Below, piece after piece: positions 35,748-37,599 of a stretch of DNA of 49,156 bases (its first letter is position 1; every line of letters starts with the position of its first letter). Below the pieces are notes generated by a model. It ran no database searches, was not told where the DNA came from, and saw only the letters and a list, made by a program, of their open reading frames with translations. The stretch is from Chitinophagales bacterium (GTDB taxonomy: Bacteria > Bacteroidota > Bacteroidia > Chitinophagales > JADJOU01): contig JALOMB010000012.1 in assembly GCA_025455685.1 (NCBI GenBank), positions 1 to 49,156 of the forward strand, in the 5' to 3' direction. The translations under genes and the position numbers were made by a program.

Positions 35748-35833
35748 CAAAGATAGTTTTTTTTGTATTCTTGAGGTATTTTTTCTTAAATTTGAATTTA
35801 ACAGATAAGTTTAAAAAAAAAAATCTATTTTTG
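35748..35833. promoter_or_regulatory. Divergent promoter region between the M16-like gene and dnaX
   Basis: TATCTTTG on the minus strand (35755-35748) faces the M16-like gene. TATTTTTG on the plus strand (35826-35833) faces dnaX and ends four bases before its ATG, predicting a leaderless dnaX mRNA. Both fit TAnnTTTG; -33 elements are not clear. Confidence 0.45.
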
Positions 35834-35837
35834 TACT

Positions 35838-36992
35838 ATGGATTCTCCGCAATTTGTTGCCTCTGCTAGAAAGTACAGACCCTCGAAGTTCAATGAAGTA
35901 GTTGGACAAGATATGACAATAGATACTTTGAAGAAATCCATTCTCACCGATCATTTGTCACATGCTTATATGTTTTGTGGACCTAGAGGCGTTGGCAAGA
36001 CTACGATTGCTCGGATTTTCGCTAAAACAATAAATTGTCTCAATATAACCGAAGATGGAGAAGCCTGCAATGTATGTAGCTCCTGTGCTTCATTTAATCA
36101 AAATAGCTCTTTTAATATTATAGAAATTGATGCTGCGAGTAGAAATAAAGTAGAGGAAATCAAATCATCTGTCATCGATTTAGTAAAATATCAACCTCAA
36201 AACGCTAAATATAAAATCTTTATCATCGATGAGGTACATATGCTCACATCTCAAGCCTTCAATGCTTTTCTGAAAACATTGGAAGAGCCCCCTAGTTATG
36301 TCAAATTCGTCATGGCCACGACCGATAAGCATAAAATCCTTCCCACTATTTTGTCTCGGTGTCAGGTCTATGATTTCAAAAGAATAGACGTAAACTCCAT
36401 AGTATCTTATCTCATTAAAATCTGCAATGCTGAGCAAATCGACTATGACCAAGAATCCTTGGAGCTTATCGCCGCTAAATCAGATGGTGGTCTTCGAGAT
36501 GCGCTTTCTCTTTTCGACAGATTATGTGCTTTAAATCAAAATAAGTTGGTCTATGATGCTGTCGTAGCTAATTTAAATATTTTAGACTTTGAGCATTTTT
36601 TTAAATTTACGCAGGCTATACAGTCAGAGGATTATGCGACATGTTTGACTTTGATCGATGAAATTTACGATTTAGGATTCGAGGCCGAGGCTATCAATGT
36701 AGGATTTGCAGACCATTTACGCAATATACTTCTAAGCAAAGATGCCAAGACCAATCAACTATTGCATATTAACCAAAAATATAAACCGCGATATCTTGAA
36801 GTCGCCAAATCTATGGAATTGTCATTCTTGATGAATTTAATTCAGGTTACTTCTGATACGGACACTTCTCTTAAATATGCTCAAAATAAACGCTTGTTGC
36901 TTGAGTTGAGCTTTATGAAACAGTGTTATATCAACAAATTGACTGCCTTTTCCATGACTCAAGTCATAGAACAAAAAAAAAATCCAAACTAA
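35838..36992 (+). CDS. dnaX: DNA polymerase III subunit gamma (dnaX, zero frame)
   Basis: The zero-frame product is a 384-residue clamp-loader ATPase. It has Walker A GPRGVGKTT near residue 48, zinc-binding cysteines (CNVCSSC near 76), DEVHML near 130 and SRC (sensor 1 to arginine-finger region) near 174, then domains II and III. It ends 10 bases after a run of ten A residues (36973-36982). The usual tau C-terminal region is missing from this frame but is open in the +1 frame directly from the A run to 37599. Removing one A or adding two restores a 586- or 587-residue tau. An inverted repeat ATGAC/GTCAT (36954-36967) lies just before the run. Possible explanations are programmed slippage, a mutation or an assembly indel. 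Confidence 0.93.
   Translation: MDSPQFVASARKYRPSKFNEVVGQDMTIDTLKKSILTDHLSHAYMFCGPRGVGKTTIARIFAKTINCLNITEDGEACNVCSSCASFNQNSSFNIIEIDAASRNKVEEIKSSVIDLVKYQPQNAKYKIFIIDEVHMLTSQAFNAFLKTLEEPPSYVKFVMATTDKHKILPTILSRCQVYDFKRIDVNSIVSYLIKICNAEQIDYDQESLELIAAKSDGGLRDALSLFDRLCALNQNKLVYDAVVANLNILDFEHFFKFTQAIQSEDYATCLTLIDEIYDLGFEAEAINVGFADHLRNILLSKDAKTNQLLHINQKYKPRYLEVAKSMELSFLMNLIQVTSDTDTSLKYAQNKRLLLELSFMKQCYINKLTAFSMTQVIEQKKNPN
36954..36983 (+). promoter_or_regulatory. Candidate slippery site: hairpin plus A10 run in dnaX
   Basis: ATGAC-TCAA-GTCAT (36954-36967) forms a 5-bp hairpin, then AGAAC, then ten A residues (36973-36982). Zero frame reads CAA AAA AAA AAT and stops at TAA 36990-36992. Thermus thermophilus dnaX uses transcriptional slippage on an A9 run, and E. 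coli dnaX uses ribosomal frameshifting at A6G; the arrangement here is analogous but unproved. Confidence 0.5.
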
Positions 36993-37599
36993 TCCAGGAG
37001 AAATTACGCCAAATATAGACACTAAGGGAATTACACAAATTTATACCTCTAATAATGATGAGTCTAGCGATATGCCTCAGGTTAAAGTTGCACCTGTGCG
37101 AATCAATAATATCATTGAACCTAAAAAGAAATTTTCGAAACTTGAAGATTTAGCCGAAATGGTCAAAGAGAATTTGCCGAAAACCTCCGATAATATAGAG
37201 ATTACTCCATTAGATACCCCAAAAGTAACCTCTTTGAATTTACCAGAAGATTTCTGGCTTGTTGTCTTAGATAAATATCGAGATTTACCTAATCCACACA
37301 CCATTGTACTGTCGAGTACCGCTCAAATAGCGCAAGATAAAGTGCTACTTTTCACCTATTCCAAATTAAATTATGATTTTATTCGACAAGAATTACCAAG
37401 GGTTTCGGAAATTTTTTTAGAAATTTATCAAGTTGAGCCTACTTTTGAAATTTTATTAGATGAAACCTTGAAGCCCAATTACCAAAAACCTTTGGAAGAT
37501 GACGTATTGGCACAATATTTTGTCATAAAACCAGAATTGAAACATTTTTTAAATATGCTACAAGCTACCCCAAAAATTATAAAACCAGATGCATCATAA
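36973..37599 (+). CDS. dnaX: tau C-terminal region of dnaX (+1 frame)
   Basis: The +1 frame is open from the A run to TAA at 37597-37599, about 208 codons. The first 35 codons are polar (IQTNPGEITPNIDTKGI), then an acidic/basic linker (EPKKKFSKLEDLAEMV), then a folded segment (LPEDFWLVVLDKYRDL, VEPTFEILLDETLKP) resembling the C-terminal DnaX region of Bacteroidota. An internal ATG at 37072 would give a 175-residue protein, but the open stretch upstream of it argues for a continuation of dnaX. Its end overlaps the lysA ATG by 11 bases. Confidence 0.75.
   Translation, partial: KKKIQTNPGEITPNIDTKGITQIYTSNNDESSDMPQVKVAPVRINNIIEPKKKFSKLEDLAEMVKENLPKTSDNIEITPLDTPKVTSLNLPEDFWLVVLDKYRDLPNPHTIVLSSTAQIAQDKVLLFTYSKLNYDFIRQELPRVSEIFLEIYQVEPTFEILLDETLKPNYQKPLEDDVLAQYFVIKPELKHFLNMLQATPKIIKPDAS

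Follow-up and report, generated by a model that had tools for sequence, protein, structure and literature searches.

The dnaX gene of a Chitinophagales bacterium (contig JALOMB010000012.1) very probably yields both of its products, gamma and tau, by programmed transcriptional slippage at a run of ten A residues (A10). The gene, here called JALOMB dnaX, is located on the forward strand of the 49,156-nucleotide stretch analyzed (the window). Its zero frame (35838..36992) starts with ATG at 35838, ends with TAA at 36990-36992 and encodes a gamma-like product of 384 amino acids. The A10 run at 36973..36982, counted as in the draft assembly, lies at the gamma/tau boundary, and the first base of the zero-frame stop is 8 and its last 10 bases past it. 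A frame scan revealed that the +1 frame (36970..37599) encodes the tau-specific tail, 204 amino acids counted from 36985; a stop ends at 36969, the frame is open from 36970, and the terminal stop is found at 37597-37599. An earlier note on this DNA had described the 384-residue zero frame ending 10 bases past the ten A residues and a +1 frame uninterrupted from the A-run to 37599. Both descriptions were confirmed, the +1 frame being open only from 36970. The two frames overlap by about 20 nt and the A-run is located inside this overlap; hence, any joining of the frames must occur there. The tail frame also contains an ATG-initiated portion of 175 amino acids (37072..37599), which gene-calling software would report as an ORF of its own. 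A further run of eleven A residues was observed in the leader at 35813-35823, 14 nt upstream of the dnaX start codon.

The registers of JALOMB dnaX give products of 384 and 393 amino acids off the tau frame as compared to 586 amino acids in the tau frame; the tail frame needs a transcript that lacks one A or has two extra. We infer from this layout that RNA polymerase slips on A10, so that dnaX mRNAs would differ in their number of A residues. Translation of faithful A10 mRNAs and of A11 mRNAs would end at most about 10 codons past the run, with gamma (384-393 amino acids) as the product; A9 and A12 mRNAs would connect to the tail frame and thus encode tau (586-587 amino acids). Tau would thus be supplied by a -1A or a +2A mRNA. 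Because slippage in Thermus is described as adding A residues in a diminishing series, this route may yield less tau than the commoner type in which tau needs one additional A (+1A).

The zero-frame product was identified as DnaX with model TIGR02397 (416.5 bits, cut-off 250), and Pfam gamma domains I-III were all present; judged by these models, gamma is encoded in full by the zero frame. The tail frame matched no Pfam or NCBIfam model. A profile of the tau tails of 65 relatives from the same order matched it with 19.0 bits in a collinear alignment, as compared to 4.5 bits for the best of 200 shuffles and values below 0 for the other frames. Profile match and collinearity together identify the +1 frame as coding for a tau tail that has diverged, which is the missing tail the earlier note had supposed it to be.

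The assembly (GCA_025455685.1) comprises 2.17 Mb in 161 contigs, is 86% complete and has no genus relative available for comparison; five other genomes belong to the same family, at 52-53% identity. A run of A9 to A12 was found at the same place in nearly all of the dnaX genes examined in 60 relatives, most of which belong to the same order; genes with GC-rich surroundings are no exception. The sample was widened to Pedobacter, Hymenobacter, Rufibacter, Mucilaginibacter, Chitinophaga, Terrimonas, Aureispira and others as well as to class and phylum samples, resulting in 212 unique dnaX loci; these are a non-random set, the searches favouring best-scoring matches, and the fractions are descriptive. 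A run of A9 to A13 is located at the gamma/tau boundary in 164 of the 212 loci (A9 in 44, A10 in 104, A11 in 13, A12 in two, A13 in one). A8 was found in none, and the other 48 loci have A7 (seven), A6 (six) or no run (35). Elsewhere in the same loci, within the same megabase, A/T runs of 8, 9, 10 and 11 bases number 174, 42, 7 and 2, a drop of about fourfold per extra base. A gap at A8 together with a maximum at A10 is the reverse of what mutation would produce. Slippage becomes efficient once a run comprises at least nine A or T (PMC5009743), and the empty A8 class matches this published threshold. The plain mutation which the earlier note had listed as a main alternative is not borne out by a run recurring at the same boundary throughout the phylum sample.

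The surroundings of the run are conserved as well. Stops in both off-frames lie within 10 codons of the run in 94% of the loci as compared to 31% of the controls (p ~1e-59), and the more distant off-frame stop follows at a median of 4 codons past the run versus 15.5 at control positions. At two loci (L105 and L157) the A10 run is located near codon 455-458, about 80-90 codons downstream of the usual place, and the two quick off-frame stops are kept, as if the cassette had moved.

To compare registers, one A was removed, kept or added and the product lengths were determined. In nearly every genome, a product of about 500-700 amino acids results from exactly one register, and the other two stop soon. 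Tau is in frame in the genome in 129 of 161 clear cases, needs one additional A in 26 and one A less (-1A, equally +2A) in six. Most relatives thus have the arrangement opposite to that of JALOMB dnaX, a Thermus-like one in which the genome encodes tau and slippage would produce gamma; the proposal that here the genomic frame gives gamma and slippage gives tau is supported by this comparison and refined by it. The six distinct -1A loci, JALOMB dnaX among them, go back to about three origins on the tree, the register being found independently in one genome with A12 (G003) and, with A10, in family f20 (four genomes). A tree of DnaX N-termini requires at least 24 register changes (average of 46 after shuffling), about three of them leading to the -1A type, and at least 43 changes of run length. 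One genus contains both in-frame and +1A members. Twenty further loci, most of them picked for a split frame, all carry A9 to A11, and every split among them is of the +1A type; split dnaX genes are also present in single-contig genomes (L284-L287). The register therefore drifts freely at the run. Since three registers coexist, a ribosomal shift in one fixed direction cannot account for all of them, whereas a ladder of lengths produced by polymerase slippage can; the coexistence of in-frame genes with shifts in either direction is the criterion by which PMC3711429 assigns transcriptional realignment.

Relatives with an uninterrupted frame usually carry the A-run, too. Only a minority of lineages, mainly Bacteroidales, were found without it; the refuting condition named in the earlier note, relatives with an uninterrupted dnaX and without A-run, thus does not refute the slippage reading. 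Two Bacteroidales MAGs without A-run, L106 (CAMZFW010000113.1) and L137 (ONQD01000012.1), have a single in-frame UAG exactly at the gamma/tau boundary (codon 363), past which a tau tail continues in the zero frame. The surrounding sequence CCA TAG ATT GCN AGG TCG CCN CAG GCG is conserved, and a CGCC/GGCG hairpin is located just past the UAG. This UAG is a candidate for a stop-readthrough route to gamma and tau, a reassigned UAG being the less probable alternative; the arrangement was not found in 395 other genomes of the class. A third run-less dnaX, L136 (CAMVOL010000002.1), is split around codon 380 with its tail in the +1 frame, perhaps by another kind of frameshift site.

Upstream of the run, JALOMB dnaX can form an RNA hairpin of 22 nt (36950..36971, forward strand; TTC.ATGAC(TCAA)GTCAT.GAA) with -4.8 kcal/mol. 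The earlier note had recognized its ATGAC/GTCAT core, which is real and extends further; the hairpin ends 1 nt before A10 rather than the 5 bases given there. Across 124 distinct loci, a 3' end 0-3 nt upstream of the run goes with hairpins of more than twice the strength seen at control positions. Hairpins at this place are enriched about two- to threefold. The mean at distance 0 is -3.3 versus -1.2 kcal, and background is reached by 8-9 nt. Hairpins of -4 kcal or below were found in 53% of the loci as compared to 32% of dinucleotide shuffles; in the order Chitinophagales, to which JALOMB belongs, the frequencies are 63% and 15%. The support for the hairpin is statistical, about half of the loci having a strong one. 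With GC content matched, the enrichment over in-gene controls holds in all three GC bins; as compared to run-less homologues, it holds below 45% GC, with hardly any enrichment above. The many hairpins which a first comparison had found in run-less loci proved to be a GC effect confined to loci above 45% GC. Outside the class, the hairpin was not enriched, and no comparable enrichment was found downstream (3') of the run. All five distinct -1A-type loci, from about three origins, have a hairpin, which is only suggestive; the idea that +1A-type genes lack it was dropped (65% versus 26% of controls). Two covarying pairs were detected in one small group, and a global pairwise covariation test gave results no better than slid controls. 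Position and enrichment point to the hairpin as a probable slippage enhancer: formed in the nascent RNA and abutting the run, it would probably increase the slippage rate.

An error of sequencing or assembly was considered as an explanation for the split. The true run would then be A9 (or A12), the tau frame continuous, and slippage would produce gamma as in Thermus. The draft, metagenome-type nature of the assembly without near relative favours such an error, as do the rarity of the -1A register and the fact that in-frame A9 ranks second in frequency among the states of the class. To judge the assembly, 59 A/T runs of at least 10 bases were surveyed in the JALOMB stretch and 55 regions of the same genome, a few contig-end sites being omitted. 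Coding frames lie on both sides in five of the 59, and the frame changes only at dnaX; a frame change at this A10 is far beyond chance. As the other four coding runs are all in frame, homopolymer indels are not common in the assembly. Furthermore, the -1A register has arisen independently in G003 and in f20, and splits persist in single-contig genomes. We consider an error unlikely, and were the true count A9, the gene would be an ordinary Thermus-like one and the conclusion of slippage unchanged. The only other sense-strand A10 found in a coding frame of this genome, at base 1001 of L274 (G000:C132:7962-9971), is in frame; its product is a secreted glucosaminidase-like protein with LysM-like repeats, identified by eye, which slippage would truncate.

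Ribosomal frameshifting on the A-run could also link the two frames, as ribosomes slip on A-runs, too, and the E. coli dnaX gene, which likewise gives two products, uses A AAA AAG (PMC5009743). The E. coli site is accompanied by a 3' stem-loop and a 5' Shine-Dalgarno sequence and directs a -1 shift; in JALOMB dnaX, AAG is absent, A10 is followed by T, the 3' hairpin is not enriched, and the direction is wrong, since the usual -1 shift leads to the stop at 393 amino acids and a shift of +1 or -2 is required for tau. Within one order, shifts in either direction and the in-frame state are found side by side. Moreover, no locus has A8 and few have A7, although the ribosome would need no more than a heptamer. 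Frameshifting by the ribosome is therefore improbable. Still less credible is a loss-of-function frameshift that would have abolished tau and left gamma alone, or the tail as a separate 175-amino-acid protein. The ATG at 37072 with its open frame would allow the latter; the tail, however, is open over 204 codons and collinear with the tau tails of relatives, and register breaks recur on the tree and are located at the A-run. Transcriptional slippage thus remains the preferred reading of JALOMB dnaX.

Transcriptional slippage at nine A residues is known for Thermus thermophilus dnaX (PMC5009743, PMC1088944), where about half of the product is tau (PMC5009743). Thermus and JALOMB dnaX have in common an A-run of at least nine at the gamma/tau boundary and quick stops in both non-tau frames. 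In Thermus the genomic frame is tau and the run A9, whereas in JALOMB dnaX the genomic frame is gamma and the run A10 with an abutting 5' hairpin. Split dnaX genes with A10 are known as well: Antonov et al. 2013 assigned 17 split dnaX genes from 12 genera, nine of them with 10 A residues, to transcriptional realignment (PMC3711429). As described there, these genes share with JALOMB dnaX two overlapping ORFs, A10 and a tau obtained only by recoding; they are all -1 at the DNA level (tau needs +1A), whereas the JALOMB tail is +1 (-1A or +2A). The main text of that paper reports neither register drift, nor the absence of A8, nor a hairpin. Our literature search revealed no paper on slippage in Bacteroidota dnaX beyond PMC3711429, whose supplementary species list may name some of the bacteria studied here. 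New are the class-wide distribution, the empty A8 class, the register drift, the abutting hairpin and the rare split needing one A fewer or two more.

In a Roseiflexus IS transposase, slippage is stimulated by a nascent stem-loop and leaves the transcript one base short (PMC5009743). The JALOMB hairpin is likewise located directly 5' of the run, and the tau register would need one base removed; the Roseiflexus element differs by its T5C5 motif, its GC-rich stem, its single defined deletion and its location in a mobile element. Hairpin and A-run of dnaX may be parts of one cassette conserved in Bacteroidia, a terminator-like nascent hairpin with an abutting run of at least nine A residues. Efficient slippage would render the register nearly neutral and allow drift among the tau-coding, the needs-one-more and the needs-one-less state; in the last one, found in JALOMB dnaX, the hairpin would drive deletion of an A as in Roseiflexus. 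We regard this combined reading as tentative, with the chances somewhat against it as a whole.

If slippage operates as proposed, many lineages of a major bacterial class would normally obtain an essential replication protein from non-templated RNA rather than from the DNA frame. Annotation pipelines would split such genes or flag them as broken, tau being out of frame in 32 of the 161 clear cases. The dnaX genes would furthermore provide a natural experiment on the run length the polymerase needs (nine, never eight), on the direction of slippage and on the effect of a nascent hairpin. Additionally, they contribute evolutionary evidence to the long-standing debate over the importance of gamma: the ability to produce both forms appears to be under selection.
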